36,057 nt of DNA, taken from NCBI RefSeq assembly GCF_001561915.1, contig NZ_LSKU01000001.1:31253-67309 (forward strand). Direction: 5' to 3'. The notes under the pieces are model-generated. The model made no database searches. It saw nothing but the letters and a program-made list of their open reading frames with translations, and was not told the DNA's origin. The position numbers were made by a program, and so were the translations under genes. This DNA comes from Tepidibacillus decaturensis (GTDB lineage Bacteria > Bacillota > Bacilli > Tepidibacillales > Tepidibacillaceae). Below, piece by piece: positions 5,137 to 33,946 of the stretch (position 1 is its first letter; every line of letters starts with the position of its first letter).

Positions 5137-5748
5137 ATGGAGCAATTATGGGATTGGATCATCATCATTTTTCGTACCATTGGAATCCCTGGATTAGGGG
5201 TAGGGCTATTTCTTGAGGGGATGGGAGTTCCCTTTCCGGGAGAAACCACAATGGCCTTTTTTGGTTTTTTATCCCAACGGGGTGATTATCCCTTCCTGCT
5301 CCTTGTGGCTACTGCTTCACTTGGTTCATGGATAGGTTCCTGGATCGCTTTTTATTTAGGGAGGACATATGGTATCGGCCTATTGTTCCGATATGGGAAA
5401 TATCTTTTCCTAAAAAGGCGTCATATCAAAATGACGATGAGATTATCTAGACGTTTTGGTGTCTGGGTACTGGTCTTAGGCAGACATCTCCCAGGAGTTC
5501 GGACCATTTCCTCCTATATGGCGGGAATTGGTCGAATGAGCTGGCCAGTATTCTTGGTCTATAGTTTGTTAGGCTTTGTTTTTTGGACGACGACATGGTT
5601 AGCTTTTGGCTATATAGTAGCGAATCGTTGGGAACAAATGGTTCAAGTGTTTAGCTCATGGGTAGCTATCATTTTTCTAATTCTTTTCATAGGTATTGGT
5701 TTAATCTATTATGTTAAAAGATATAGAAAACAAGGAAAAGTAAATTAG
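5137..5748 (+). CDS. DedA-family (VTT domain) membrane protein
   Basis: Predicted integral membrane protein of 203 aa from the DedA/SNARE-associated family. Family signatures are present: FLEGMGVPFPGETT near the N-terminus, GSWIGSWIAFYLGRTYG in the middle, and the G-R-H/F-x-P-G-V-R motif as GRHLPGVRTISSYMAG. Members are proposed to be flippases or proton-coupled transporters that recycle undecaprenyl phosphate or phosphatidylethanolamine; which applies here cannot be read from sequence. SD is GAGGTG, 5-6 nt before ATG. It lies 61 nt after ligA and ends in a long hairpin terminator shared with the 86-nt structured repeat. Confidence 0.9.
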   Translation: MEQLWDWIIIIFRTIGIPGLGVGLFLEGMGVPFPGETTMAFFGFLSQRGDYPFLLLVATASLGSWIGSWIAFYLGRTYGIGLLFRYGKYLFLKRRHIKMTMRLSRRFGVWVLVLGRHLPGVRTISSYMAGIGRMSWPVFLVYSLLGFVFWTTTWLAFGYIVANRWEQMVQVFSSWVAIIFLILFIGIGLIYYVKRYRKQGKVN

Positions 5749-5754
5749 AGTATA

Positions 5755-5868
5755 AAAGGGTTTGAATATTCCATAAGCTGCGACCTTCAGAAGTGCCCTT
5801 CTCTCCGTAATCTTTATTCATAGAAGGGCACGGATGACGGAGCGCGATGGAATATACAAACCTTTTTT
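5755..5868 (+). terminator. Long hairpin terminator enclosing repeat copy A
   Basis: GGTTTG (5759-5764) and ATATTCCAT pair with ATGGAATAT and CAAACC (857-862 of the 5 kb block), followed by six T residues (5863-5868). The enclosed sequence is the 86-nt structured element. It lies between the converging dedA and AI-2E genes, so it can serve as dedA terminator. Confidence 0.7.
5768..5853 (+). repeat. 86-nt structured intergenic repeat, copy A
   Basis: It aligns without gaps to 8259-8344, with about 60 of 86 positions identical. Stem 1 pairs ATTCCA with TGGAAT at the two ends. Stem 2 pairs GTGCCCTTCT (positions 26-35 of the repeat) with AGAAGGGCAC (55-64). Conserved single-stranded blocks are CATAAG, CGAC, TTTATTC and CACGGA..ACGGAG.GCG. 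Orientation is arbitrary. I do not recognise it as a known riboswitch or ncRNA family. Confidence 0.7.
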
Positions 5869-5894
5869 ATTTATGAGTCCCCTTATGGGTATTG

Positions 5895-6959
5895 TTATAT
5901 TTTAAGCCGATAACGAATCACTTTTGCTTTGACTAATGCCTTATAAAGAATCAACAATAATGGACCTAGGAAAACACCAAGGATACCCAGTACTTTAAAT
6001 CCTACCCAAATACTAATTAATGTGGTTAATGGATCCAATCCAATTCTTTCTCCTAATATTTTTGGTTCGATTACTCGTCGTACCACAGTAATCACGATAA
6101 AGAGAACAATTAATCCGATTCCTAAAAGGGTATTTCCTTTTGTAATTGAAAAAATAGCCCATGGCATAAGTACAGAACCAGTACCTAGAATCGGTAAAAT
6201 ATCGACCACAACAATCAACAAAGCGATCGCAGAAGCGTAGCCTACATTTAATAGAACTAATCCAATTAAGCTGATGATATAAGTAATCGAACTAAGAATG
6301 ACTTGTGCATGTAAGAAACCAAAGGTTGCAACTCGGATATCTTTTAAAATAATCTCTAACTTTGCTTTTGATTCTTTTTTAAAATAGCTAAAAAACTTCC
6401 GATTTATATAAGGAAGATTTAAACTAATTAAGAAGAGAGAAACAAAAAAGAGAATCAGTGTAATAAAGTAGTTTGGTATCGCTGTTGTAATATTATAGGT
6501 TTGAGTTCCTATCGTAGATAATAGGTCCATGTTGGCTAAATCGTTGATAAATTGAGTAAAAGATTGGTTAATTTGCGTTGATACTTCAGTAGGGAGCATC
6601 TGAATCACATCTTGCGTTTGTCGATATATATGGAAGAACCAAAGCTGGATATTCGGAATATTCTTTTGGATATATTGAATCAAATTCACCATTTCAATGC
6701 TGATCCGTGTAACAATCATATAAACTAACCAGGAAAAAGTACCCAAAAAGAGGAAATAAGTAATGTTAACAGCAATGCTTCGTTTTAGTTTTGTCATTTT
6801 CATTAACCAGAGGTTAACGGGTTCTAACATCAATGCAAATAGATAAGCAAAGATAAACGGAATAAAATGTGGAAAAACATAATAAAAGACCAAAGGTATC
6901 AATAAAATACCAATAATGATGCCAATTGTAATTAGAACTTTTACCGCATAATGCTTCAT
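5895..6959 (-). CDS. AI-2E family transporter (YtvI/TqsA-like)
   Basis: Membrane protein of about 354 aa with the topology of the AI-2E transporter superfamily: two or three N-terminal helices, a long hydrophilic amphipathic region (about residues 90-150), then five hydrophobic segments. The C-terminal block GxGSVLMPWAIFSI...RVIEPKILGERIGLDPLTTLISIWVGFKVLGILGVFLGP matches the family's conserved region. Members export autoinducer-2 or act as Na+(Li+)/H+ antiporters; the substrate here is undetermined. ATG 6959 is preferred over the in-frame TTG two codons upstream, because AAAGGGA is spaced about 7-8 nt from it. It converges on dedA. Confidence 0.88.
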   Translation of the reverse strand: MKHYAVKVLITIGIIIGILLIPLVFYYVFPHFIPFIFAYLFALMLEPVNLWLMKMTKLKRSIAVNITYFLFLGTFSWLVYMIVTRISIEMVNLIQYIQKNIPNIQLWFFHIYRQTQDVIQMLPTEVSTQINQSFTQFINDLANMDLLSTIGTQTYNITTAIPNYFITLILFFVSLFLISLNLPYINRKFFSYFKKESKAKLEIILKDIRVATFGFLHAQVILSSITYIISLIGLVLLNVGYASAIALLIVVVDILPILGTGSVLMPWAIFSITKGNTLLGIGLIVLFIVITVVRRVIEPKILGERIGLDPLTTLISIWVGFKVLGILGVFLGPLLLILYKALVKAKVIRYRLKI

Positions 6960-7083
6960 GAACAATCCCTTTCTCTATCCTTTTGAGATTCATTGTATAG
7001 AAAAATTTTGATAGATGCAAACACTTGTTATCAGTGATAAAATGGACAAAGGTAGTCTGCAACATAGATAAGGGGGCTTTTTT

Positions 7084-8124
7084 ATGCGATTTAAGAGGAA
7101 AAGGTTATTTATCCTTTTATTTTCTTTTACGTTTATCTTTAGCGGTTGTTCCATTTGGCAACCACTTGAAAATAGTAAAAAACAGAATGAAGCGATGGAA
7201 CCTACTTCTATTATTGCGCCAGACGTAAAGGTAAACGAAGAATATTACCGTGGTGTTTTGCCATATAAGCCAAGTCCAATTGGTGGAATGTTAAAGGAAC
7301 TTCCTAGACGTCTAGATTCCAACAAATTCGAACTAGGTTTGATTGAAATGGCAAAAAATGAATACGATCCTAGCGAATTTGTTTTTCAAGAAGGACAAGT
7401 TTTAACGATGAATGAGATTGAACCGATCCTAGACCAATACCAAGATTTCCTTTATTCTGTCGTTGAACATGATTACTTACATGAAGATGGAACCTATGGC
7501 GGGGTTGTGGTTGGATTATTCGTGTCCTCTGTCTATCAGGAAGGGGAAACGAGAAAGTCCTATACCGATGATCAGATTAGAGAGAGATCGAAAGAAATTG
7601 CAAACAAAATCTTGTCCATGGTACGGAAGAAAGTAACAGATCCTTCTATTTTGTTTGGGATCGTGAAAGCTGAAGAAATTGATATGAAACTCCCTGGAAC
7701 TTTTATCTTAAAAGGAGAAGTGAAAGAAAAGGAAAATAGTATAGATGATTGGACAAATATAGAAGAGTCTTATCTTTTCCTACCTGCAAAAGGAAGTTCA
7801 TATAATGGTAGTGAAGGCGATATATCTCTTGGCTTTAACCAGTTAAAAGATCAGTTAAATGAGTATCTCCCAGGATTTGCAGGGCTAACTGGCTTGGCCA
7901 GATTTGTAAATGGCAACTTAATTGAATTGACAATCAATGTAAATACTGAGTTTGATTCAACCGTTGAAGTGATTCAATTTACCCAATTTGCAATTGCATT
8001 GATTTCTAAATATTTCCCCACAGACAGTCAAATCAACCTTTATGTTCAAACGATCGACCAACCAAAGGCGATTTATATTAGACAAGCAAATGGAGATGAC
8101 TTTGTCCATATTTATAGGGATTAA
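7084..8124 (+). CDS. camS: CamS-family sex-pheromone lipoprotein precursor
   Basis: Lipoprotein of 346 aa: positive N-terminus (MRFKRKR), hydrophobic core and lipobox FSGC, with Cys at about residue 21 as the lipidated residue. The mature part matches the CamS family (PYKPSPIGGML, ...YGGVVVGLFVSSVYQ..., DQIRERSKEIANKIL). In Enterococcus/Staphylococcus the released signal peptide of CamS gives a conjugation pheromone; in Bacillales the physiological role of the lipoprotein is unclear. SD AAGGGGGC precedes ATG. In related genomes this family sits close to pcrA-ligA-gatCAB, which fits the neighbourhood here. Confidence 0.88.
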   Translation: MRFKRKRLFILLFSFTFIFSGCSIWQPLENSKKQNEAMEPTSIIAPDVKVNEEYYRGVLPYKPSPIGGMLKELPRRLDSNKFELGLIEMAKNEYDPSEFVFQEGQVLTMNEIEPILDQYQDFLYSVVEHDYLHEDGTYGGVVVGLFVSSVYQEGETRKSYTDDQIRERSKEIANKILSMVRKKVTDPSILFGIVKAEEIDMKLPGTFILKGEVKEKENSIDDWTNIEESYLFLPAKGSSYNGSEGDISLGFNQLKDQLNEYLPGFAGLTGLARFVNGNLIELTINVNTEFDSTVEVIQFTQFAIALISKYFPTDSQINLYVQTIDQPKAIYIRQANGDDFVHIYRD

Positions 8125-8149
8125 TCCTACAAAATAAAGAATAACAAGA

Positions 8150-8186
8150 AGAACGTATCCTTAAAAAATAAGGTACGTTCTTTTTT
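8150..8186 (+). terminator. Rho-independent terminator after camS
   Basis: AGAACGTA(T)CCTTA pairs with TAAGGTACGTTCT through a short A-rich loop, with one bulged T, and is followed by TTTTTT. Confidence 0.85.
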
Positions 8187-8258
8187 GCACGACTATTATT
8201 TCAAAGTAATTATGGAACCCTGCAAAAATCTTCCTCTTAGTATTTGGTGGATTTTTAT

Positions 8259-8344
8259 ATTTCATAAGTAACGACTTTTGGGAGTGTATTTCTTACCTAA
8301 TGTTTTATTCTAAGAAATGCACGGACAACGGAGTGCGTTGGAAT
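8259..8344 (+). repeat. 86-nt structured intergenic repeat, copy B
   Basis: Second copy of the element at 5768-5853, the same length and with no gaps. The inner stem is GTGTATTTCT with AGAAATGCAC: two C-G pairs of copy A are replaced by A-U and U-A, and a third becomes U-G. The outer stem keeps pairing with one wobble (ATTTCA with TGGAAT). Like copy A, it lies between converging genes, here camS and the proline dehydrogenase, 4 nt from the latter's stop codon. Confidence 0.7.
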
Positions 8345-8347
8345 CCT

Positions 8348-9277
8348 TTATGATTTAAACAAACTTTTTAAGATGAATAGCCCATTAGCAGGTCTTTCGG
8401 CAATACGTCTTGAAAAGTAAGGATACCAATGCTTTCCATAAGGGGTATATACTCTTACTTTATACCCTTCTTTTACTAATTCACGTTGTAACCCATTACG
8501 AACCCCATATAACATTTGAAATTCAAATTGATCATTGGAAATGTTATTTTCTTTGACAAAGCGTTTTGTCTCCTGAATAATTTTTTCATCATGAGTAGCA
8601 ACAGCTGTATAATGGCCATTTTTTAAATGGAGGGCCACGATTTTATTATAATTGGCATCTACGTCTCTCTTTAGCGGGAAAGCAACTTCCTTAGGTTCCT
8701 TATAGGCGCCTTTAACGATGCGAAGGCTTGCCCCTAATTTTCCTAGCCCTTCTACGTCTTTTTCTGTTCGATAAAGGTAAGATTGAACGACTAAGCCTAC
8801 ATGTTCCTTGCCGTATTTGGCTAATACACGTTTAAAAATATCTATCGTAATGTCAACGACTGGAGAGTCTTCGATATCGATTCTGACAAAATTGTTACGT
8901 TCTTTAGCTGCGGCTACAATTCGGTCCATATTTTGATAACAAAAATCATGGTCAATACTTAACCCAAGCTGGGTGAGTTTGACAGAAACATTGGATTGTA
9001 ATTGATGTTGTTCGATCATTTCAAAAATTCGGATCGCCTCATCGGTTGCTTGTATCGCTTCATCCTTTGTGGATACGCTTTCTCCCACATGGTCTAAGGT
9101 AACTAGAAGTCCTTCCTTATTTAACTGTTTGACCATTTCTACAGCTTGCTCTAAGCTCTCTCCAGCGATAAAGCGCTTTGCCCCCATTCTCATACCATGC
9201 TTTGTAACCACATTGGTGACTGCTTTATTGCTTGCTATCCCTAAAACGACTTTACGACCTAATTGTTCAAAGGCCAT
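8348..9277 (-). CDS. putB: Proline dehydrogenase (PutB/FadM type)
   Basis: FAD enzyme of 309 aa that oxidises L-proline to pyrroline-5-carboxylate, the first step of proline catabolism. Family features are the beta-strand core LVTLDHVGESV, VSVKLTQLG, FVRIDIEDSP, GLVVQSYLYRT, LRIVKGAYKEP, VATHD, EFQMLYGVR, and the C-terminal substrate-binding motif YFSRRIAERPAN with two arginines. The length is that of stand-alone Gram-positive enzymes, not the bifunctional PutA. ATG 9277 has a GAGG-type SD. Its product is the substrate of the aldehyde dehydrogenase at 11197-12744, and the start region carries a sigma-54 promoter. Confidence 0.93.
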   Translation of the reverse strand: MAFEQLGRKVVLGIASNKAVTNVVTKHGMRMGAKRFIAGESLEQAVEMVKQLNKEGLLVTLDHVGESVSTKDEAIQATDEAIRIFEMIEQHQLQSNVSVKLTQLGLSIDHDFCYQNMDRIVAAAKERNNFVRIDIEDSPVVDITIDIFKRVLAKYGKEHVGLVVQSYLYRTEKDVEGLGKLGASLRIVKGAYKEPKEVAFPLKRDVDANYNKIVALHLKNGHYTAVATHDEKIIQETKRFVKENNISNDQFEFQMLYGVRNGLQRELVKEGYKVRVYTPYGKHWYPYFSRRIAERPANGLFILKSLFKS

Positions 9278-22658: not shown

Positions 22659-23879
22659 CTATTTTGATTGTGGGTGGAAAAGTCTTTCAAATATATCTAC
22701 TGTATCCTTTGACATTTTTTCAGTTGCATGGGAATAAGTATCCATTGTTGTTGCTAACCTGGAATGTCCAAGTCTTTTCTGAACATCTTTCATGTTAGCA
22801 CCTAATTCAATCAACAAAGTAGCGTGTGTATGCCTTAAAGCATGGAAATTGAATTGTATCATTAATTCATAGTTTATGACCCTGCTGCAATATCTGATTG
22901 ATTCAGGTGTAACCAGTTCACCATTTTCTTTTGTGCAAACAAATTGAATTGAATCATCAGTGGTTTTATTTTCTTTTGTTCCATCAACTGAATAAATCCT
23001 GTCATTTTTATCAACATAATAAAAGTTGAAGTATTGACCATATTTCAAACGGTTCTCTATTTGCCATTTCTTATGTTTCTTTAATATTTCAAGTAAAGTG
23101 TTTCCAATTGGAATTTTGCGAATAGATGAAAGGGTCTTGGGAGTTCCAAAATACCATTGTTTATGTTCCTTCTTGACCAAGATTCTTTTTACTTCAATAA
23201 GCTTATTTTCAAAGTCAATATCATCCCAAGACAAGGCACAACATTCACCAACCCTTGTTCCAGTATGGTAAGCAATTTGTAATGGGATATAGAATGGATT
23301 GCCTTTAGGAAATCGTTCAATTATCCTTTTGAATTCATCCTGGGATATAATCTTTCTGTCAGTTTCATATTTCTTATTTTCGTTCTTTGGCAACTTCACA
23401 TATTGCATTGGGTTATCCTTGATGAACTTGTAAGGGAAAACCGCTGCTTTAAATGAACCTGAAAGAACTGAAATAATATTTACTAAATGATTCTTTGAAT
23501 AACCCATATTTGATTTTTCATTAACAAATTGTTGAAGAACAGCAGGTGTAATTGATTTTATTTTAAATGCTCCAAGTGAAGGTTTGATGTGATTCTTGAT
23601 AATTCGTGAATAACCTTCAATAGTGTTGTATTTACAGTTCATTTCAACATAGTTTTTCAACCAATAATCCATGTAATCAGCAACAGATATTTCACTTGGT
23701 TCAAAGTGTAACCCTGCATTCTCATATTCTTGAAGTGCTTTTCTTAAAGCAGCTTCTGCTTCTTTTTTTGTTCTTCCACCTTTTCTTTCGATTTTCTTTC
23801 TTTTTCCATCAACCTTACCTAAATCAAAATAGTAATACCAGTTGTTTCCACGTTTTCTTACTCCACCAGTCATAATCAT
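22659..23879 (-). CDS. int: Tyrosine site-specific integrase
   Basis: Phage-type tyrosine recombinase of about 406 aa that would catalyse integration and excision of the element. It has an N-terminal arm-binding AP2-like domain (VRKRGNNWYYYFDLG, about 5-50), a core-binding SAM-like domain (about 65-150) and a catalytic domain. The catalytic residues are visible: Arg in TGTRVGECCALSW, HALRH (H-x-x-R), His in LGHS and Tyr in TTMDTYSH. Its 3' end faces rlmD. Starts at ATG 23879, ATG 23873 or TTG 23882 are all possible; AAAGGA lies just upstream and best fits 23873. Confidence 0.95.
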   Translation of the reverse strand: MIMTGGVRKRGNNWYYYFDLGKVDGKRKKIERKGGRTKKEAEAALRKALQEYENAGLHFEPSEISVADYMDYWLKNYVEMNCKYNTIEGYSRIIKNHIKPSLGAFKIKSITPAVLQQFVNEKSNMGYSKNHLVNIISVLSGSFKAAVFPYKFIKDNPMQYVKLPKNENKKYETDRKIISQDEFKRIIERFPKGNPFYIPLQIAYHTGTRVGECCALSWDDIDFENKLIEVKRILVKKEHKQWYFGTPKTLSSIRKIPIGNTLLEILKKHKKWQIENRLKYGQYFNFYYVDKNDRIYSVDGTKENKTTDDSIQFVCTKENGELVTPESIRYCSRVINYELMIQFNFHALRHTHATLLIELGANMKDVQKRLGHSRLATTMDTYSHATEKMSKDTVDIFERLFHPQSK

Positions 23880-23922
23880 CAATCCTTTCTAAAATGGGCA
23901 TAAGTAATACACCCTTTATAAC

Positions 23923-23979
23923 TCCAAAGGATTCATGATATAATACAGTTATCAGTGGTACTATTCCAGGTCCTTTGGA
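23923..23979. repeat. 9-bp inverted repeat upstream of int
   Basis: TCCAAAGGA (23923-23931) and TCCTTTGGA (23971-23979) are perfect inverted copies 39 bp apart. They flank an extended -10 sequence. They could be integrase or excisionase arm sites, or part of the small-RNA candidate next to them. Confidence 0.45.
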
Positions 23980-24038
23980 TTTGTAAGGTATCTATGTGAA
24001 AACAGTCCTTGTGTTGCAGCACAGGGGCTGTTTTATTT
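23936..24038 (+). ncRNA. Candidate small RNA between int and repressor
   Basis: An extended -10 promoter TGATATAAT (23936-23944) points right. About 50 nt further a strong terminator begins: AAAACAGTCCTTGTG (23999-24013) pairs fully, with two G-U pairs, with CACAGGGGCTGTTTT (24020-24034), and is followed by ATTTTT. The plus strand gives the better fold, yet both flanking genes are on the minus strand, so no coding gene needs this terminator. The predicted transcript is about 85-90 nt. The -35 box is weak. The terminator could instead act in part as a minus-strand terminator of the repressor gene. Confidence 0.45.
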
Positions 24039-24443
24039 TTATTCATTTGGTTTACGATACTTTTCTTGTTCAACTAAATCAGATACATAATCTAAAGCTT
24101 TGCTTTGTCCTACTTCATTTAATGATGTAAAATCCTCTAATAGATTTTTAGCTTGTTCACCAAAACATGATTTTACATTTTCAATTAACTTCACTTCTTT
24201 TGATACTTCTTCATTTGAATTGAATCTTTTATCAAATTCATCCCAACCCATTAATTCAGATAACTTCACATCAAGAACGTCTGCTATTTGTTGAAGAACA
24301 TCAGTTGGAACTTGTACTAAACCTTTTTCATATTTTCTAATTGAACTTTCAGTTTTACCGATTTTGTCAGCTAATTCTTGTTGGGTTAGCTTCTTGTTTT
24401 TTCTTGCTTTTTTAATATTACCTCCAATTTTGGACAAATCCAT
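24039..24443 (-). CDS. cI-like HTH (XRE) repressor
   Basis: DNA-binding protein of 134 aa. An N-terminal HTH_3 domain (residues about 5-62: IKKARKNKKLTQQELADKIGKTESSIRKYEKG...) is followed by a short helical C-terminal domain with no peptidase signature. Placement next to int, and divergent from a Cro-like gene across repeated operators, marks it as the immunity or master repressor of the element. The lack of a LexA/cI protease domain suggests induction is not by RecA self-cleavage. An antirepressor or a helper-phage protein, as in satellites, is possible but not shown. Confidence 0.85.
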   Translation of the reverse strand: MDLSKIGGNIKKARKNKKLTQQELADKIGKTESSIRKYEKGLVQVPTDVLQQIADVLDVKLSELMGWDEFDKRFNSNEEVSKEVKLIENVKSCFGEQAKNLLEDFTSLNEVGQSKALDYVSDLVEQEKYRKPNE

Positions 24444-24471
24444 ATTTTAACTCCTTTCAAATATTAACTTA

Positions 24472-24499
24472 ATGATACCATAACGACAATTAAAATCAA
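24472..24499 (-). promoter_or_regulatory. Repressor promoter with embedded operator
   Basis: On the minus strand TTGATT (24494-24499), a 16-bp spacer and TATCAT (24472-24477). The operator half-site ACGACAATT (24483-24491) lies inside the spacer, suggesting autoregulation. Confidence 0.5.
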
Positions 24500-24528
24500 G
24501 TTTTATATAAAAAATTTAATAAAACCAC

Positions 24529-24586
24529 TTTACAACGACAATTTAGTTGACTATAATGAATTTATAAACCGACAATTAAATTGTCG
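24529..24586 (+). promoter_or_regulatory. Early promoter with two operators
   Basis: TTTACA (24529-24534), a 17-bp spacer and TATAAT (24552-24557) drive the rightward operon. The half-site ACGACAATT (24535-24543) lies in the spacer. A perfect 17-bp palindrome CGACAATTAAATTGTCG (24570-24586) lies at the predicted transcription start. Binding of the repressor or Cro at these sites would block polymerase. Confidence 0.7.
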
Positions 24587-24604
24587 TTACAGGAGGTGTT
24601 ATTA

Positions 24605-24814
24605 TTGAAAATCGACAAAAATAAGTTTGATTTAGCAATGGCGAGAAATTGTTTTACTTCTGAAAAGCTTTCTAATTTAACAGGCATTTCAAAAGTGACA
24701 ATCATTAGGGTGAAGAATGGCTCACAAAACCCAAGACCAATGACAGTTGGAAAGATTGCAAAAGCACTGAACGTGAAGGTTGAAGATTTAATTGAAGGGG
24801 GGAATAAACTATGA
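24605..24814 (+). CDS. Cro-like HTH regulator
   Basis: Small XRE-family DNA-binding protein of 69 aa, almost entirely one HTH_3 domain (MARNCFTSEKLSNLTGISKVTIIRVKNGSQNPRPMTVGKIAKALNVKVEDLI). TTG 24605 is chosen because AGGAGG lies 7 nt upstream; longer reading would include the operator palindrome. First gene of the rightward operon and opposite the repressor, the classic cro position. It overlaps the next gene by 4 nt (ATGA), so the two are translationally coupled. Confidence 0.82.
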   Translation: MKIDKNKFDLAMARNCFTSEKLSNLTGISKVTIIRVKNGSQNPRPMTVGKIAKALNVKVEDLIEGGNKL

Positions 24815-25038
24815 GTGAAAATGATGTTCTTTATACCGTCAATGAAGTTTCAAAGTTAATAAAGACAAATCCTGCATACGTTTATGAACTTATTAAAGCA
24901 GGGTTGCTTCCAGTTTTGAAACTTCCAAACTACAAAATTAGAAGGTCTGCTTTGTTGGAATTCTTGGAAAAGTATGAAGGCATGGATTTAACCAAACCAC
25001 AACAAATAAAACAACTCTACCCCGATAAATCTAGTTAA
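24811..25038 (+). CDS. Excisionase-like (MerR/HTH_17) DNA-binding protein
   Basis: Protein of 75 aa with a winged-helix HTH_17 fold: LYTVNEVSKLIKTNPAYVYELIKAGLLPVLKLPNYKIRRSALLEFLEKY. This family includes Xis proteins that direct integrases to excise, and AlpA-like activators. Its place directly after the Cro-like gene and far from int is normal for elements where xis is in the early operon. An excisionase role is likely but not proven. Confidence 0.75.
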   Translation: MSENDVLYTVNEVSKLIKTNPAYVYELIKAGLLPVLKLPNYKIRRSALLEFLEKYEGMDLTKPQQIKQLYPDKSS

Positions 25039-25072
25039 TCCCATGAATAAGGTAAAAAGGATGGTGCATAGA

Positions 25073-25384
25073 ATGGATGAATTTACAAATACGTCTGAAT
25101 TGGTCATGTATATCCTGACCAATGATGAACAATCCAGGAACAGTGACAATTACTTGTTTTATTTAGTGGGGAAGAAGATTCTTGGAAGCAAAGGAATTGA
25201 TATTGACAAGATTGGATTCAAAAAGTTGTTCCTATCATTAAAGGAATATGGACTTCCCCAGTTTGAAACAGTGGGAAGAATCAGAAGGAAACTACAACAT
25301 GAATTTCCCCAATTATCAGGGTGTGAAAGTGTCAGTATGCAAAGATTACTAAATGAAGAATCATTTAATGATTTTTCAAAATAA
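25073..25384 (+). CDS. Small early-operon protein, unknown function
   Basis: Soluble, charged protein of about 103 aa; not recognised. It has the segment IDIDKIGFKKLFLSLKEYGLPQFETVGRIRRKLQHEFPQLSG, which resembles the HTH/wing region of phage proteins ahead of replication genes (residues of type FETVSRIRRKLQ are common in such ORFs). ATG 25073 is preferred, with AAGGATGG 7 nt upstream; ATG 25043 has no SD. It sits between the excisionase-like gene and the candidate replication gene, 21 nt before the latter, and so is probably part of the same operon. Confidence 0.65.
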   Translation: MDEFTNTSELVMYILTNDEQSRNSDNYLFYLVGKKILGSKGIDIDKIGFKKLFLSLKEYGLPQFETVGRIRRKLQHEFPQLSGCESVSMQRLLNEESFNDFSK

Positions 25385-25405
25385 GGAAAGAGAAAGGAAG
25401 ATGAT

Positions 25406-25867
25406 ATGAAATCATATGAAGAATTTGAAAAAGAATTCAAAGATACTGAACCCAAATTGAATGAAGTTGAACAGGCAAGAAAAGAACGTATTGTGAAGAT
25501 ACTCAATCAAAAGGTAAGTGAATTAAACACTTACAAGCCTACTGAAACAATTAAAAAGAATTTGGCAGCATTTATTGATTGGCATATGGAAGAAATTCAA
25601 ATCATTGAAAATCTGATTTACGAAGGTTTAGTTGATGGAAAAGCAACAAATGAAGTCTATCAAAAATATGTTAGTCGTTGTGAAGCAGGTGGGCTTCCCG
25701 ACTTCATGAATCAAATTGCTTTTTCACAGTTTCTTATTAAATACTTTGGTTTCAAAATCATTAATAAGAAAATCAAAGGGAAGAAATATAGAATCTTCAT
25801 AATTAAAGAACAAGAAAGGGAAGAAAAGGTTGATACGAATGGCAAAAGTAACTGGTGGAACTCTTAA
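25406..25867 (+). CDS. Candidate replication protein (primase-type winged helix)
   Basis: Protein of 153 aa, Lys/Glu-rich. Its C-terminal half (about residues 75-135: LVDGKATNEVYQKYVSRCEAGG..., MNQIAFSQFLIKYFGFKIINKKIKGKKYRIF) resembles the winged-helix found after D5-type phage primase-helicases, in which a structural wHTH contacts origin DNA. No helicase or primase core is present, so it is either an initiator-like accessory protein or the remnant of a longer protein. It ends immediately before the iteron cluster at 25871-26127, the normal place for an initiator relative to its origin. The assignment rests on fold-like similarity seen by eye and on position. Confidence 0.5.
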   Translation: MKSYEEFEKEFKDTEPKLNEVEQARKERIVKILNQKVSELNTYKPTETIKKNLAAFIDWHMEEIQIIENLIYEGLVDGKATNEVYQKYVSRCEAGGLPDFMNQIAFSQFLIKYFGFKIINKKIKGKKYRIFIIKEQEREEKVDTNGKSNWWNS

Positions 25868-25870
25868 TAT

Positions 25871-26127
25871 GGTTCAATGTGACTGTCACCTTGAACCGAA
25901 CTTGAACCGCTTAAATTACAGTCATATCAAGGGTTATCAGATAAAAGGTTCAAGGTTCAAGGTACATTTCATTTCTTATATATTAAATAAAAAAATATAT
26001 AAGAAATATATAAATACCCTAAAAATAAATAATATATAGGTTCTAACCTTGAACCTTGAACCGCAACGCTTGAAAGCCTTGATACATAAGGGTTTATAAC
26101 GGTTCATGGTAAGGTTCAAGGTTCATG
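25871..26127. other. Candidate replication origin with iterons and AT-rich core
   Basis: Ten GGTTCA/TGAACC hexamers occur in 255 bp: plus-orientated at 25871, 25947, 25954, 26101, 26113, 26120 and minus-orientated at 25892, 25903, 26050, 26057. Doublets have 7-bp spacing. GGTTCAAGGTTCAAGG (25947-25962) is a perfect 16-bp inverted copy of CCTTGAACCTTGAACC (26047-26062). The 84 bp between them are nearly pure A/T and contain a 13-bp perfect hairpin, TTTCTTATATATT (25972-25984) with AATATATAAGAAA (25994-26006). Iterons flanking an AT-rich segment is the origin layout known from staphylococcal pathogenicity islands and theta-type replicons. No gene is expected here. Confidence 0.75.
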
Positions 26128-26162
26128 GTAAATCAGTTAAATTTAGAAAGGTGGAAATGTAA

Positions 26163-26636
26163 ATGAAAAATTTTGAAATGACATTAGATGAAATCATTGA
26201 ATCTATCAATCCATTAAATATTGTCGGTTTAGACCTTGTTCCTGATAAGAAGGAAGGAGTGCCATTACTAATTGTGACGGAAGAAGTAGAAGGTGAATTG
26301 CAGTTTTACCGTTTACCTGCCACAAAGACAGATGAAATTATTGCAATAAATACGCTGTTAAGGTCATTTGATTTAGGCATTACCATTGAATTTATGAATT
26401 ATCGACAATACACATCATTATTGGAAACAGTGATGCATCTGTTGAATATTAATAAAGCTATGGAAAAGGTCAAACCTGCATCTAGTGTTCATGTGTCCGA
26501 AGTATATTCAGTATTGATGGATGAATTATCTTTCAAATATAAAGCATCAGGTATACAAGATTACATGGATAATTTGGAAGGGTATATTTCAGAAGCAATT
26601 GATTTGGTACTAAGCATGAGAAAAGCCACTGCATAA
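26163..26636 (+). CDS. Unknown acidic protein after the origin
   Basis: Protein of 157 aa, not recognised. It is acidic, predicted alpha/beta in the first 80 residues (LLIVTEEVEGELQFYRLP) and helical after that, without membrane segments or a known motif. AAAGGTGG lies 8 nt before ATG, so it is very likely translated. It stands alone between the origin and a 13-bp inverted repeat. Confidence 0.7.
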   Translation: MKNFEMTLDEIIESINPLNIVGLDLVPDKKEGVPLLIVTEEVEGELQFYRLPATKTDEIIAINTLLRSFDLGITIEFMNYRQYTSLLETVMHLLNINKAMEKVKPASSVHVSEVYSVLMDELSFKYKASGIQDYMDNLEGYISEAIDLVLSMRKATA

Positions 26637-26650
26637 TTAAATTACACAAT

Positions 26651-26701
26651 GGCTTCACGTGATACTATTGAATTCGCACTTTGATTTTATCATGTGAAGC
26701 C
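26651..26701. repeat. 13-bp inverted repeat (possible terminator or operator)
   Basis: GGCTTCACGTGAT (26651-26663) and ATCATGTGAAGCC (26689-26701) are inverted copies with one G-U type mismatch and a 25-nt spacer. There is no T-run, so it may be an RNA hairpin or a protein site ahead of the next gene, not a simple terminator. Confidence 0.5.
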
Positions 26702-26715
26702 AATCTAAATCAAGA

Positions 26716-26940
26716 TTGGATGTGATTATCATAGACCATGTATTGAATTCTATTAGAGCACATTATGAAGTAACCCTGGATTGGTTTATTGAAGAACATA
26801 GAACAGGTAAATATAAAAAGCTTTCTGATAATCCGCATTATGGGGAAATCAAAGCCATGATTGATGCTATGAATTGCATCAGGAAGTATCTTGGATGGGA
26901 GCGAATCACATTGAAGCAGGAACTTGAATTCTATTTGTAA
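26716..26940 (+). CDS. Small unknown protein
   Basis: Protein of about 74 aa (HVLNSIRAHYEVTLDWFIEEHRTGKYKKLSDNPHYGEIKAMIDAMNCIRKYLGWE), not recognised. It is helical, with no known motif. The only plausible start near the 5' end is TTG 26716, and no good SD is visible, so the start is uncertain. It ends 8 nt before the Mor-like gene, suggesting a shared transcript. Confidence 0.55.
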   Translation: MDVIIIDHVLNSIRAHYEVTLDWFIEEHRTGKYKKLSDNPHYGEIKAMIDAMNCIRKYLGWERITLKQELEFYL

Positions 26941-26948
26941 GGGGGGAA

Positions 26949-27203
26949 TTGATATTGCCAAAATCCGTATCATTTGCAGAAATTAAGCCAATTATTGGTG
27001 AAGAAGCTGCATTAAGATTAATTGATAAATACGCTGATTCACAAGTGTATATTCCAAATAAAATGCCTGAATTCCCCAATCCTGAAACTAGGAATGAATA
27101 CATTAGAAATCTATCGTATTCAGGTAAATCAATTCAAGAGTTAGCGGAACAGTTTGATTTGTCTAAAGGATATATCTATAAAATACTAGCAGGTAAAAAT
27201 TGA
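26949..27203 (+). CDS. Mor-family transcription activator-like protein
   Basis: Protein of about 84 aa resembling the Mor/C family of phage middle and late gene activators. The N-terminal half has IGEEAALRLIDKYADSQVYIPNKMPE, the dimerisation region, and the C-terminal half a helix-turn-helix R.EYIRNLSYSGKSIQELAEQFDLSKGYIYKIL. TTG 26949 (or TTG 26955) follows the SD GGGGGG. It is followed by a strong terminator. In Mu-like and Firmicute phages such proteins switch on later operons; here the genes beyond 27.9 kb are candidates. Confidence 0.72.
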   Translation: MILPKSVSFAEIKPIIGEEAALRLIDKYADSQVYIPNKMPEFPNPETRNEYIRNLSYSGKSIQELAEQFDLSKGYIYKILAGKN

Positions 27204-27230
27204 CCCACATTAAATATGGGTCAATTTTTT
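27198..27230 (+). terminator. Terminator after the Mor-like gene
   Basis: AATTGACCCA pairs with TGGGTCAATT around a 9-nt loop, then TTTT. It closes the early operon. Confidence 0.85.
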
Positions 27231-27381
27231 GAAAGTTAATATTCAATATATAGTATTATTTTTTATCATTTTTCCGAAAAACATCTAAATGTTGTGGTTT
27301 TTTATGACAAGCTATGTTTTTGGAAGGTATAATTTGAGTATGGGAAAATAATGAAATTTATCTTACGCTTTTGGAATATGC

Positions 27382-27409
27382 GTTCCCTTTGCTGACTTTC
27401 AAAGGGAAC
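27382..27409. repeat. 10-bp hairpin
   Basis: GTTCCCTTTG (27382-27391) pairs perfectly with CAAAGGGAAC (27400-27409) around an 8-nt loop. There is no T-run after it. It precedes the decayed HTH gene. Confidence 0.5.
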
Positions 27410-27422
27410 AAAATCATTTTCA

Positions 27423-27797
27423 AACGAATTACTAGGTAAAACTAGAGATTTTAGAGACCCTAATAAGCATCCCGACATTTCCGACACCCTAAAAAAGAAG
27501 TATCAAGACATTCAAGACACCCTAAAAAAGAAGTTGCATCAAATATGGGGATAGCACGTTCCACATTAAATGAGTGGAAGAAAAAGTATCCTGACATTTC
27601 TTACACCCTAAAAAAAGGGGAAAGATAAATATAGTCAGATTTGTCAGTCCCTAAAAAAGGCAAGGAACGGACTGACAAATGAGCAGATTGCTTCAAATAT
27701 CGGAATAACACGAAAGACATTGCAAGAATGGATTTCAAAGTATAGTGACATAAGTGACACCCTAAAAAAGGGGAAAGAAGTTGTTGACAAATGTTGA
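27423..27797 (+). pseudogene. Decayed repetitive HTH gene (phBC6A51-type)
   Basis: No full ORF, but two frames carry successive pieces of one protein family. Frame A gives RDPNKHPDISDTLKKK and YQDIQDTLKKK (27465-27530). Frame B gives SNMGIARSTLNEWKKK then YPDISYTLKKGE (27539-27622). Frame A again gives LTNEQIASNIGITRKTLQEW then ISKYSDISDTLKKGKEVVDKC (27678-27797, stop at 27795). The module 'EQIAxNxGIxRxTLxEWxxKYxDISxTLKKGKEVVD' is the HTH of phBC6A51-type phage proteins, found near or as small terminases. The conserved region after EVVD is missing and there is no start with an SD. The 717-bp gap 27204-27920 holds this, the hairpin above and a CCCTAA-rich tract. Confidence 0.65.
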
Positions 27798-27884
27798 CTT
27801 TAGAAAATAAATAAGTTGGTTGCATTTTAAATGTTAGCAAATGTTAAGGTTCAAAATTACTAAGAAACCCTAAGGCAACCCTAA
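27458..27884 (+). repeat. Dispersed CCCTAA repeats (8 copies)
   Basis: CCCTAA occurs at 27458, 27487, 27520, 27606, 27649, 27760, 27868 and 27879. Four of them (27487, 27520, 27606, 27760) belong to a longer block, GAC-A-T/A..GACACCCTAAAAAAG-like, and the last two to a tandem CCCTAAGGCAA. Part is explained by the repeated protein module (the codons of DTLKK); the pair at 27868-27884 lies beyond it. Confidence 0.6.
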
Positions 27885-27920
27885 GGCAAAAATATTAAAA
27901 ACGAAAGGAAAGATGAAAAA

Positions 27921-28481
27921 ATGACAGAACAAGAATTCATAACTAATATCAGAACCGCTATTAAAGCTAGTGTGGATGATACTGAACTTCAAAAGAAAAG
28001 GCAGTTAGAACAGCAACAGAAAACCTTACAAGAAAGCGTTCAACAGCTTCAAGCTGAATTGAATACTTTAATTAAAAATCATGATTATGAAAATGCAATG
28101 ACCAAAGAATCAGAATTAAAAGATGCTCAAAAACAATTGAAAATGGTCAATGATGTGTTGAATACCTATGGTGATGACGTTAATTTATATGCAATTGATT
28201 ATGATGCATTAGATGATATTCAAAGGCAAGTGAATAGTCACTATAAAGCACAACTAAAAGCAAAGTGTGAAGAACTGAAAGCATTACTGGTTCAAGCAGA
28301 TAGTATTAAATCAGACATTATGAAAATTAATGGTGCTGCAAATCAATTAATACATGCCATCCTAGCTGCTAAAAAAGACAACACTACACCAAGGACAGCT
28401 TTAAATTGGGATTTTATGACCAAAGACACAGAAGAAGCAAAGGCATTAAACAAGCTTCATGAGTTCACCAAGCGTTTTTAA
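27921..28481 (+). CDS. Unknown coiled-coil protein
   Basis: Soluble protein of 186 aa, not recognised. Residues about 20-80 are Gln/Glu/Lys-rich with heptad-like spacing (LEQQQKTLQESVQQLQAELNTLIKNHDYENAMTKESELKDAQKQL), predicting a long coiled coil, followed by a helical region with ALKAKCEELKALLVQADSIKSDIMKI. No signal or membrane segment. SD GAAAGGAAAG is 9 nt before ATG. First gene of a three-gene cluster with the next two. A scaffold- or structural-type role is conceivable but not supported by a motif. Confidence 0.7.
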   Translation: MTEQEFITNIRTAIKASVDDTELQKKRQLEQQQKTLQESVQQLQAELNTLIKNHDYENAMTKESELKDAQKQLKMVNDVLNTYGDDVNLYAIDYDALDDIQRQVNSHYKAQLKAKCEELKALLVQADSIKSDIMKINGAANQLIHAILAAKKDNTTPRTALNWDFMTKDTEEAKALNKLHEFTKRF

Positions 28482-28500
28482 TATAGGTGGGGATATTTCT

Positions 28501-28809
28501 ATGTATCAATTCATCATTGAACAACTGGACAAGGTACTAAAGCTTCACCAGGAAAAGAAAAAAGCATTGTTGGTTGTATCGAATACTAAAACAAAAAGGG
28601 TTGGATTGTATCAGTTAAAATTAACCGCTGCTGAAAAATCCAAAATGATTCATAAGGTCAATAATAACTATGATTCAAAGATTGCAGTAATTTACAACAA
28701 CATGAATAAAAAACTGAAAGAAGCAGGTTATAAGGAATTAATAAATCCATTTGAAGCAAATACGAAAGGGGAAATTAACGGTGAAAATTGGGTTAAGAAA
28801 AGCCATTGA
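28501..28809 (+). CDS. Unknown small basic protein
   Basis: Protein of about 102 aa, Lys-rich (MYQFIIEQLDKVLKLHQEKKKALLVVSNTKTKRVGLYQLKLTAAEKSKMIHKV...), not recognised. ATG 28501 is chosen because GGTGGGG lies about 10 nt upstream; the longer frame opens within the preceding gene. The final 29 nt overlap the next gene, which begins at GTG 28781, so the two are probably translationally coupled. Confidence 0.65.
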   Translation: MYQFIIEQLDKVLKLHQEKKKALLVVSNTKTKRVGLYQLKLTAAEKSKMIHKVNNNYDSKIAVIYNNMNKKLKEAGYKELINPFEANTKGEINGENWVKKSH

Positions 28810-29524
28810 AGATTTAATTGCAGCTTATCAAGGGAGTAGAGAAGTTGCCATTGAGAGTATGCGGGAAGTTATTGATGAATGGAAAGACAAGGTGAATATT
28901 TATCAAGCTGACCATATTCATAAGCAAATTAAGGATGGTCTTGAATCGGTTGTTAGTAATGTGACCAAAGTAAACACAACCTTGAATCAAAAACTGAATG
29001 CACTGGTTCAAGGTACTAAAGAAAAGGTCATGCCATTATATGTGACTGAATTTGAAAAACCTGCTGACTATGAAACACAAATTAGTAATGCACTAAGGTA
29101 TTTGGATATTGAAGGTGAAGATATTACGGATGATAGTGCCTATCCTATTCTAAAAAAATTCATAGATGACCATGACCAAATGAAATTGTTCAAGAACATC
29201 ATTAAAAAGCGTGTTAAAGCTAATGGTGGACAAATGGAAGATGCCAATGGAAAAAGCACCTTCCCTAAAACATTTGGAAAGCTTAATGAAATCGAAATGA
29301 TACTGGATATATTTAATGAAATGGAATCTATTGCAGAAAAACTATTTATGCATGACAAAGAAAATGGTGAAACATTTATTATCAATGGTTATAAATATTC
29401 ATTACCAATAGAATCATATGAAGAAATAGCAAGTGAAGAAGGTATTGTTGCATTGGCTAAAAAACTTGAAGATGAACTTAAAAAAATTGATGGTGTGGAA
29501 CAAGTAGCAAACCAAACTGCTTAA
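28781..29524 (+). CDS. Unknown helical protein of the 27.9-29.5 kb cluster
   Basis: Protein of about 247 aa, not recognised: acidic, helical, no membrane segment. GTG 28781 has GAAAGGGG 9 nt upstream; the upstream in-frame ATG lacks an SD. Contains AIEDLIAAYQGSREVAIESMREVIDEWKDKV at the N-terminus and a central IIKKRVKANGG. The position of this three-gene cluster, after the decayed HTH gene and before the ArpU-like regulator, would be occupied by head or packaging genes in a complete phage, but none of their signatures are seen. Confidence 0.65.
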   Translation: MKIGLRKAIEDLIAAYQGSREVAIESMREVIDEWKDKVNIYQADHIHKQIKDGLESVVSNVTKVNTTLNQKLNALVQGTKEKVMPLYVTEFEKPADYETQISNALRYLDIEGEDITDDSAYPILKKFIDDHDQMKLFKNIIKKRVKANGGQMEDANGKSTFPKTFGKLNEIEMILDIFNEMESIAEKLFMHDKENGETFIINGYKYSLPIESYEEIASEEGIVALAKKLEDELKKIDGVEQVANQTA

Positions 29525-29540
29525 TAGCTTGAATCAAAAG

Positions 29541-29570
29541 GGGAACAAGGTGAAATTAATCCTTGTTCCC
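29541..29570 (+). terminator. Hairpin after the unknown cluster
   Basis: GGGAACAAGG (29541-29550) pairs perfectly with CCTTGTTCCC (29561-29570) around a 10-nt loop. Only TTAAC follows, so termination may be weak, or the hairpin may attenuate the following regulator genes. Confidence 0.55.
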
Positions 29571-29598
29571 TTAACTGCTAGATTAGGGGATTGATGCA

Positions 29599-30024
29599 AT
29601 GATTGAACAAAGTTTAATAGAAATGGTCAGTGCCAAAATAGGGGATGCATTGATAAAAGAACTGAAAAAACATAGATTGTTGAAATTAGAACCATCAGCA
29701 ATTGAACTGGTAAAAGCTGATATTGAACAATTTAACTATTTAATTGAACAATTAAGTAATAATTCTTTGTATGAACATATGAAAACAGATGCTATTCATC
29801 TTATTAAAGAAATTCAACAAGCATTGAACAAAGTTCAAAACCAATTAAATGAAAAAGAATTTGCTATTTTTTATAGTTGTTTATTCAATAAGAAACCCAA
29901 GCGAACAGTAGCTTTTGAATTTGATATAGACGTTGGAACAGTATATAGAATCATCAACAAAGGATTGGAAAAGATGGCGATATGGATTTACCCACATGTA
30001 TTTCTGAATGAACTAATGAATTAG
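29599..30024 (+). CDS. ArpU-like phage transcription regulator
   Basis: Protein of 141 aa with an N-terminal helical region (residues about 1-85) and a C-terminal sigma-70 region-4-like HTH (LNEKEFAIFYSCLFNKKPKRTVAFEFDIDVGTVYRIINKGLEKMA). This matches the architecture of ArpU/RinA-type Gram-positive phage late regulators that act before the packaging and structural operon. SD AGGGGATTG precedes ATG 29599. The sigma-like gene starts 11 nt later. Confidence 0.7.
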   Translation: MIEQSLIEMVSAKIGDALIKELKKHRLLKLEPSAIELVKADIEQFNYLIEQLSNNSLYEHMKTDAIHLIKEIQQALNKVQNQLNEKEFAIFYSCLFNKKPKRTVAFEFDIDVGTVYRIINKGLEKMAIWIYPHVFLNELMN

Positions 30025-30035
30025 GCGGTGAGGGA

Positions 30036-30947
30036 ATGACCAATGAAGAATTAGTGGAACTTATACAATCAGGTGTTAATGTAACAGAAAACTTGGGCAT
30101 CCTCTACCAACAAAATCAAGGGATTTTAATGAAGTGGGCATATCCATATTCAAAGCAAGTGGATATAGAAGATTTAATGCAAGAAGCATATTTTGGATTA
30201 AAGGAAGCTGCAGAAAACCATAATGCTGCATTGAATTTTAAGTTTTTGACTTATGCACATTGGCGAGTGCTTCAAAAAATTGTTCGTTATGTTCACTCAA
30301 ACCAACATTCAAAACGGATTCCTGAATACTTACTTCAAAGGATATCTAACTACCATAAATTAAAAAAAGCTTTTCTTGAAGATTATGGTAGAGAACCAAC
30401 AAAAGATGAGTACATGGAACACTTACAAATCAGCAAGAAGGTATTTAGAGAATTGGAAAGGTACATTTCAGAAATTGATTATATTAATTTGGATGCACCA
30501 ATCTTGGAAGGTAAGACGTTATCAGAAGTAGTTTCTGATAATTATGATTTAGAAAAAGATGTAACTGAAAGACTGACACAGAATCAATTATCAAGTGATG
30601 TATGGAAAGCAGTAGACGAACTGGATGAACTAAAAAGGGATATTATCATTCAAAAGTATAAAAACAACTGCACATTGACTGAAATTGCTTTAAATAAGCA
30701 AATATCAGCTACAAGGGTGGAACAGATTGAAAAGAAAGCATTACATCTATTATCAAAGAAACAATGGCTTCAGTATTTGGCAATAGAAAGATTTGGTTAT
30801 GACAGTAGGATAAGTTACAAATATGGAGTTCAGAAATTTAAAGATAGAAGAACGTCATCAACTGAATTTATTGCAATGAAAAATATCCAAATTCAAGAAG
30901 AAATATCGAAGGTAGATAATTTATTGAACAATATAGCAAATCTTTAA
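30036..30947 (+). CDS. Element-encoded sigma-70 family sigma factor
   Basis: Protein of 303 aa with all the regions of a group 3-like sigma factor. Region 2 (about 35-85) has DIEDLMQEAYFGLKEAAENH and FKFLTYAHWRVLQKIVRYV; region 3 (about 95-150) has LQRISNYHKLKKAFLEDYGREPTKDEYMEHLQISKKVF; region 4 (about 180-225) has LKRDIIIQKYKNNCTLTEIALNKQISATRVEQIEKKALHLL. A basic tail follows. It would bind core RNA polymerase and redirect it to element promoters, presumably the tail genes downstream. SD GGCGGTGAGGG precedes ATG. Promoter targets are unknown. Confidence 0.88.
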   Translation: MTNEELVELIQSGVNVTENLGILYQQNQGILMKWAYPYSKQVDIEDLMQEAYFGLKEAAENHNAALNFKFLTYAHWRVLQKIVRYVHSNQHSKRIPEYLLQRISNYHKLKKAFLEDYGREPTKDEYMEHLQISKKVFRELERYISEIDYINLDAPILEGKTLSEVVSDNYDLEKDVTERLTQNQLSSDVWKAVDELDELKRDIIIQKYKNNCTLTEIALNKQISATRVEQIEKKALHLLSKKQWLQYLAIERFGYDSRISYKYGVQKFKDRRTSSTEFIAMKNIQIQEEISKVDNLLNNIANL

Positions 30948-30964
30948 AAAGGTAGGTGAAAACC

Positions 30965-31435
30965 ATGAATAAAAATATTGAAGTGATTAATGAAAACCTA
31001 TTGGCGGTTAATTTTGAACATATTAATGCAGGATTAATTAAGGAAATCACATTTGACAGTGAAAATTGTTCTGACTATGCCAGTCTAACAAAGGATGGAA
31101 AGATTCTCTTAAACAAAAATGATTCAATGTATCAAAAAAATCTTACTCTTATTCAAGAAATCATGCAATTAACAGATGAACAGCTAAATAGTGAAAAAGG
31201 TTTGTATGAAGTCATGCGAAAGATTTTTAAACCATTTCAGAAATTATCGAATGAAGAGATAGACAAGTTCATTAAAGAAAACGGTTTTGAAAAAGCAATT
31301 CACTTTTATTACAGCTTTTTTCAGTTAGAAAAGCAAAGAAGAATTTATCAAAACAATAGTGACAAACATCAAAAATCATCCTTTAACCTGAAAAGATTGT
31401 TTAATCGAAAGGTAGGTGAAGTTAAAAATGGCTAG
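30965..31435 (+). CDS. Unknown protein before tape measure (tail chaperone position)
   Basis: Protein of about 156 aa, not recognised by motif. In tailed phages the gene directly before the tape measure usually encodes a tail assembly chaperone, and the acidic N-terminus and helical middle ([33 protein letters not shown]...) do not contradict this; there is, however, no visible slippery-site second ORF. SD AGGTAGGTG precedes ATG 30965, and the last 8 nt overlap the tape measure start. The role is inferred from position only. Confidence 0.6.
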
Positions 31436-33593: not shown

Positions 33594-33946
33594 TGCGTGA
33601 TGCAGGTTATTTAGTCAACCTTATTAAAAGAATTGCACTAGGTGCAGTAGCAACAACTTATCCAACTGCAATACAATTTGGAAAAGTCACCAGTGTTTCC
33701 CCTCTTAAAATAAATGTAGAACAGAAAATGACGTTATCTAAAGAGCATCTTATTCTGACAAGGAATGTGAAAGACTATAAATCCAAAGTCACAGTGAACT
33801 GGTCAACAGAATCAACAGATAACCATACACATCAAATTCAAGGTGTTAAGGAAATAACATTTCATAATGCATTGGAAATAGGTGACAATGTTTTAATGCT
33901 TAGAATGCAAGGTGATCAGAAATTTATTGTATGGCATAAGCTTTAA
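33593..33946 (+). CDS. DUF2577 (XkdR-like) baseplate protein
   Basis: Protein of 117 aa matching the DUF2577 family, to which PBSX XkdR belongs: IALGAVATTYPTAIQFGKVTSVSPLKINVEQKMTLSKEHLILT, then VGDNVLMLRMQGDQKFIVWHKL-like end. It sits near the tail hub/baseplate in contractile phages. Its start overlaps the tape measure stop by one base (TAATG). In PBSX xkdP and xkdQ lie between the tape measure and XkdR; here they are absent, and so is the usual XkdS/XkdT baseplate series after it. A terminator follows immediately. Confidence 0.85.
   Translation: MRDAGYLVNLIKRIALGAVATTYPTAIQFGKVTSVSPLKINVEQKMTLSKEHLILTRNVKDYKSKVTVNWSTESTDNHTHQIQGVKEITFHNALEIGDNVLMLRMQGDQKFIVWHKL

Follow-up and report, generated by a model that had tools for sequence, protein, structure and literature searches.

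The window analyzed here, a 36,057-nt stretch of the 2.96-Mb genome of Tepidibacillus decaturensis (G000), contained two related segments, copies A and B. Each was located in a gap between convergent genes, as described in an earlier sequence-only reading. Copy A was found between a DedA/VTT gene and an AI-2E transporter gene, and copy B between a CamS gene and a proline dehydrogenase gene. The genes and the parts of both copies are listed below in window coordinates.

5137..5748, + strand: gene encoding a DedA-like (VTT domain) membrane protein, upstream of copy A (PF09335).
5754..5774, + strand: left arm of the copy A outer stem, AAAAGGGTTTGAATATTCCAT, which pairs with the right arm and co-varies in 23 copies of this genome and 48 copies of the family.
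5757..5861, + strand: copy A, a full hairpin core with an outer stem of ~20 bp, an internal-loop core and a 10-bp apical stem (covariance model R1 match G000:C1:37006-37116, 127.7 bits; fold).
5776..5791, + strand: 5' side of the conserved core of copy A, AAGCTGCGACCTTCAG, in which AAG..GCGAC.TT is nearly invariant across five genera and common to the G048 family described below.
5795..5830, + strand: apical stem-loop of copy A, GTGCCCTTCT...AGAAGGGCAC, variable among copies (helix 3, two-sided changes in 6/6 counted pairs).
5831..5846, + strand: 3' side of the conserved core of copy A, GGATGACGGAGCGCG, conserved across genera (genome-wide pattern CACGGANNACGGAGNGCG).
5848..5868, + strand: right arm of the copy A outer stem, ATGGAATATACAAACCTTTTT, followed by a T-rich tail (fold).
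5895..6965, - strand: gene encoding an AI-2E family transporter, the convergent neighbor of copy A (PF01594).
7084..8124, + strand: gene encoding a CamS-type lipoprotein, upstream of copy B (PF07537).
8259..8344, + strand: copy B, partly degraded, with an outer stem of ~6 bp, just beyond the stop codon of the proline dehydrogenase gene on its 3' side (R1 match G000:C1:39499-39607, 85.6 bits; orthologous gap empty in three genera).
8286..8322, + strand: apical stem-loop of copy B, GTGTATTTCT...AGAAATGCAC, differing from that of copy A by compensatory changes (alignment, fold).
8348..9277, - strand: gene encoding proline dehydrogenase, the convergent neighbor of copy B (PF01619).

The window also harbored a prophage-like region (22659-33946) with a tyrosine integrase gene (PF00589) at its start, a phage-type repressor-like gene and a gene for a tape measure protein (PF20155).

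The 86-nt segments 5768-5853 and 8259-8344 aligned without gaps at 60 identities, the ~70% originally reported, compared with 21 ± 4 identities (maximum, 34) in 2000 shuffles in the same register. The inner 10-bp stem differed at the three pairs that had been named (C-G to A-U, C-G to U-A, and C-G to U-G). The extent of the outer stem had been misjudged: it comprised ~20 bp in copy A (GGGTTTGAATATTCCAT / ATGGAATATACAAACCTT) and only ~6 bp in copy B, so the element is ~105-111 nt long and the first coordinates were slightly short. In copy B, which is degraded, most of the outer stem has been lost. The blocks described as conserved and unpaired turned out to be mostly internal loops and short helices within one long hairpin, and the minimum free energy had a z-score of -5.9 in copy A and -3.5 in copy B.

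The element had been taken to occur in two copies, whereas ~86 sites, comprising full copies, copies with internal deletions and one-armed copies, were counted in the T. decaturensis genome when all match lists were merged. A pattern for the 3' core matched ~70 times in this genome against 9 times for its reversed control, and patterns for the left and right halves matched 51 and 62 times, respectively, with no matches for the controls. The covariance model R1, which was built from 23 full copies of this genome, yielded 67 matches there, a few of which represented the opposite strand of the same palindrome. R1 also matched in each of the five genomes from the family to which the host belongs (G000-G004, five genera, with Vulcanibacillus modesticaldus as G004), and the covariance search proposed earlier thus returned dozens of further copies from this genome and related Bacillales. 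Among 394 other Bacilli genomes, R1 found the element in none. This result applies to the close form only, because the broader model R2 gave two matches (E 1.3e-8 and 1.9e-6) in the genome G048, which belongs to a different Bacilli family. G048 contained nine copies per ~560 kb of sampled stretches (L239-L258, L271-L278) by a strict scan; a loose regular expression, applied to G048 and three genomes of its family, produced mostly chance matches. The G048 copies shared the core AAG..CGACYTT / CGGAG..CGTT and had entirely different, G+C-rich stems; judged by this core, they are a homologous family. R2 gave no significant match in G007, G030, or G076, of which 80 kb each were searched. A pattern search over genome contigs with a gap limit of 33 matched in Vulcanibacillus only, and because this limit is below the length of the long apical form, the search says nothing on that form elsewhere. 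A distant blastn search of records from plasmids and phages and a pattern search of IMG/VR gave no match to the element. Rfam gave no match in the window at the gathering threshold, nothing relevant for ten element loci at E up to 5, and no match for three G048 loci, so that no family known to it explains the repeat. A literature search on repeats of the host genus and on the EFAR repeats of E. faecalis returned nothing usable. The repeat constitutes a family of small, hairpin-forming mobile DNA repeats that had not been catalogued before.

The hairpin was supported by covariation at two levels. Within T. decaturensis, 95.6% of the cells in stem columns were paired (shuffles, 87.9%), and two-sided changes were present in 20 of 35 pairs, whereas shuffling gave 8.7 and slid controls no more than 8. 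Across the five genera (48 copies), pairing reached 94.5% compared with 77.9% in shuffles, and two-sided changes affected 29 of 31 pairs (17.5 shuffled; at most 14 slid). Outer stems were replaced as a whole with pairing kept (GGGTTTGTATATTCC, AATTGTGTTTTGC, GTGTTAGATATTC, GTTGTATTTTGTA), and inner stems consisted of several unrelated sequences, with a minimal apex, GTGAAAC, in Vulcanibacillus. The constant core comprised a 5' part, AAG..GCGACTTTTGGGAG, and a 3' part, CGGACAACGGAGCGCGTT; as AAG..CGACYUU / CGGAG..CGUU, it possibly forms a tandem G.A motif. In some copies, a further structured insert was present, ATAGCGTGACTAGCAGCTTTAGCTGTGTAGCACGACTTGTACACTTTGTGTGC, and its helix co-varied (CGTG/CACG to GACG/CGTC, by inspection). 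The modules of the element are a left one on the terminator side, a two-helix insert that is optional, and the hairpin core. When stems were delimited by Watson-Crick pairs only, G.T cells outnumbered A.C cells in the outer stems (38 vs. 11, p = 1.4e-4); in the apical stems the difference (10 vs. 4) was not significant. The excess of G.T over A.C indicates that the drawn strand, as RNA or as single-stranded DNA, is the selected folded one, and a strand-specific mutation bias could contribute to it. The covariation is unlikely to have arisen purely by palindromic correction, given that every lineage retains the same asymmetric internal loops. In G003 (L085, L094, L162, L163), some elements were situated within the apical region of another, forming nested hairpins.

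The gap between the proline dehydrogenase and CamS genes was syntenic in all five genomes of the family. In G001, G003, and G004, it was plain, terminator-sized and devoid of the element. In T. decaturensis, copy B adjoined the proline dehydrogenase stop codon and the host terminator was still present, whereas in G002 the gap was occupied by a different subfamily in the opposite orientation, and no terminator other than the element was seen. The two occupants are independent insertions. This difference in the occupancy of an orthologous site shows that the repeat is mobile. No clean target-site duplication was seen when the orthologous gaps were compared, nor was a parent transposon found. Head-to-tail tandem copies were found with a period of 113 nt in G002 and 90 nt in G004, 5'-truncated copies were frequent, and 3'-truncated copies and internal deletion derivatives were also present. 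Six tandem partial left arms (ATTAAGAAGTTGTATT) preceded a full element in Vulcanibacillus (L065:1580-1670), as if arms had been abortively copied again and again.

The longest form starts with AAAGATTAAGAAAGTATAACTTTCTTCC. In 27 of 41 copies, a full left end was located directly 3' of an intrinsic terminator (a hairpin and T-run); among control positions, this held for 23 of 1683 (1.4%) that were 12-300 nt upstream of these sites and for 27 of 1965 chosen at random. The terminators ahead of the left end varied between sites, and at L035 and L013, left-end-like sequence followed the T-rich right end of another copy. The right side of the element often abutted the stop codon of the convergent gene. 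In the 146-bp gap of copy A, the element was the sole large hairpin, and it was accompanied by T-rich tails on both strands (CCTTTTTTATTT on the + strand and CCCTTTTATA on the - strand). A consensus terminator scan, whose loop limit is exceeded by the loop of the element, did not flag it. Judged from hairpin and tails, an inserted element can plausibly act as a gene-end terminator, including a two-way one.

Relative to a terminus near 1.1 Mb and an origin between ~2.65 Mb and the contig end, both placed only by the GC skew of sampled stretches, the sense strand was in leading-strand orientation in 49 of 59 chromosomal copies (p = 2.7e-7). Of 13 copies whose upstream gene was on the lagging strand, 11 still had the leading-strand orientation, as did five of five with both neighbors on the lagging strand. 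These counts indicate that the direction is set by replication and not by genes; transcription was rejected as its cause, since the element follows replication where the two disagree. In this orientation, the sense (folding) strand is the lagging-strand template, which is exposed as single-stranded DNA.

We consider it probable that the two segments belong to a non-autonomous hairpin element that is moved as folded single-stranded DNA (or as reverse-transcribed RNA) and that can double as a terminator at gene ends. The folded core would be recognized by an enzyme provided in trans, either on single-stranded DNA of the lagging-strand template or on RNA that is copied back there, and this enzyme would insert the element after a hairpin and T-tract. 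Behind terminators, the element would survive because it is harmless there and is itself usable as a two-way terminator through its own hairpin and T-rich tail. The specificity for the folded strand, the lagging-template orientation and the structured target together point to single-stranded DNA (HUH-like) movement or to lagging-strand-primed reverse transcription. The further copies and the empty and occupied orthologous site support the sequence-only reading, according to which selection acts either on an RNA or on a mobile DNA repeat that forms hairpins. Between these options, the mobile DNA repeat is favored because the orientation tracks replication and not gene direction; the life of the element may include an RNA-level stage.

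Neither a Y1 transposase (PF01797) nor an RVT_1 reverse transcriptase was found in G000 or G004, and RVT_1 proteins were present in G001-G003. The T. decaturensis contigs have N runs at repeats, where multi-copy genes may be missing, and the absence of mover enzymes from this genome is therefore weak evidence. RAYT-like Y1 transposases were detected in G003 and G001 (L113, L114); they were rejected as the mover, as the nearby palindromes (such as GGGGCCTGGCCCC and GACAAGGGGACGTTTCGTTTGTC) were unrelated to the element. A wider proposal, which we put forward tentatively, is that the two families represent a new class of mobile hairpin element that occurs in at least two Bacilli families with the same internal-loop core and wholly replaced stems, and that an undescribed enzyme reads the folded core and inserts the element behind terminators during lagging-strand synthesis.

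Among the alternatives, a cis-acting RNA structure that is kept by the host for 3'-end processing, mRNA stability or termination, spread by duplication and selected on the transcript, would account for the strong covariation, the tolerance of G-U on one strand, the location at gene 3' ends, the hairpin with its T-rich tail, and the element taking the place of the terminator in the G002 proline dehydrogenase/CamS gap. It is nevertheless unlikely, given that the element follows replication even against the direction of the upstream gene (11/13), that many copies are located past the own terminator of the host gene (27/41 left ends), and that the orthologous gap is without the element in three of the five genera. 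It appears rather more doubtful that the element is a derivative mobilized by the reverse transcriptase of a group IIC-type retroelement. Group IIC introns insert next to DNA stem-loops such as terminators and depend on lagging strands (PMC10190682), and the insertion of the element 3' of a hairpin and T-tract, its lagging-template orientation, the RVT_1 proteins of G001-G003 and the frequent 5'-truncated copies agree with such an origin. On the other hand, T. decaturensis and G004 lack RVT_1, the element is only 80-200 nt long with no intron ribozyme and no Rfam match, and 3'-truncated copies exist too. Least probable is a miniature inverted-repeat transposable element (MITE), i.e., a deletion derivative of a cut-and-paste transposon with the outer stem as terminal inverted repeats and with inner pairing that is incidental or due to template-switch palindrome correction: the long perfect inverted repeats, small size, lack of coding capacity, many copies and internal deletion derivatives resemble one, but the outer arms differ completely between subfamilies of one genome with pairing kept (L047, L058), the internal loops have been retained in five genera (and the core in another family) instead of being corrected to perfect pairing, and strand and replication asymmetry is unexpected for a symmetric element.

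To our knowledge, most small dispersed bacterial hairpins, including ERIC, BOX and bcr1, have no known mover and no known reason for their shape. Bcr1 is reportedly mobile, according to the title of the paper on it. Pneumococcal BOX elements are modular, with constant ends and optional structured middle modules (boxA-boxB-boxC); compared by description, the element is similarly modular but consists of its own modules, namely the left module, the two-helix insert and the hairpin core. REP/REPIN sequences, which are mobilized by RAYTs, are likewise extragenic, palindromic, multi-copy and consistent with a single-stranded DNA logic, whereas the element is three to five times longer, has another core and is without a RAYT in its own genome; REPs are 20-40 nt palindromes with a GTAG or CGTC-type tag, compared with 79-111 nt and a different core here. 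The element shares with the IS200/IS605 type a folded strand, as assigned from the G.T excess, on the lagging-strand template (49/59 copies). Ends common to an autonomous Y1 (IS200/IS605) element were sought: G000 has no Y1 gene, and inspection of an IS605-type locus in G002 revealed no such ends. The likeness to group IIC introns lies in target choice, and the element has neither ribozyme nor reverse transcriptase; a search of ten element loci for a group II intron produced no match to an Rfam intron family. The element works like ERIC, BOX, bcr1 and REP, and on the features tested it is a member of neither the REP/RAYT nor the group II intron systems. ERIC (or IRU) repeats of enterobacteria (PMC2267715) are also dispersed intergenic imperfect palindromes (~127 bp) that form one long hairpin and carry internal insertions or deletions. 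By description only, the element differs from them in its core, its replication-biased orientation, its terminator-tied left end and the replacement of outer stems between subfamilies. The repeats bcr1 of the Bacillus cereus group (147-167 nt) and Bhal-1 of B. halodurans (74 nt) are interspersed repeats of Bacillales with predicted conserved stem-loops (PMC2267715), and they too were compared by description only. The same survey lists stem-loop repeat families in B. anthracis and B. halodurans, one of which could be a distant relative of the element.

The family provides an unusually clean handle, as it combines a covariation-defined core common to another family, a describable landing site and a direction that tracks replication. 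The movement of such repeats becomes testable in cultured organisms, e.g., V. modesticaldus.

The left end of the element also occurred on its own. The module AAGAAAGTATAACTTTCTTCC was found alone 3' of terminators (L199:1501, L212:1501, L216:1501), once after the terminator of a tRNA gene, and possibly represents an independent unit. T. decaturensis also carried a second family of hairpin repeats, CCCACAAAAGTAATCGGAATATGCTTCGAAGGAAGTCGTCACTTTTGTGGG, which are shorter (L212:1501-1600, L176:9150-9300, L017, L027, L035, L004), and some copies of this family followed the same left-end module behind a terminator.
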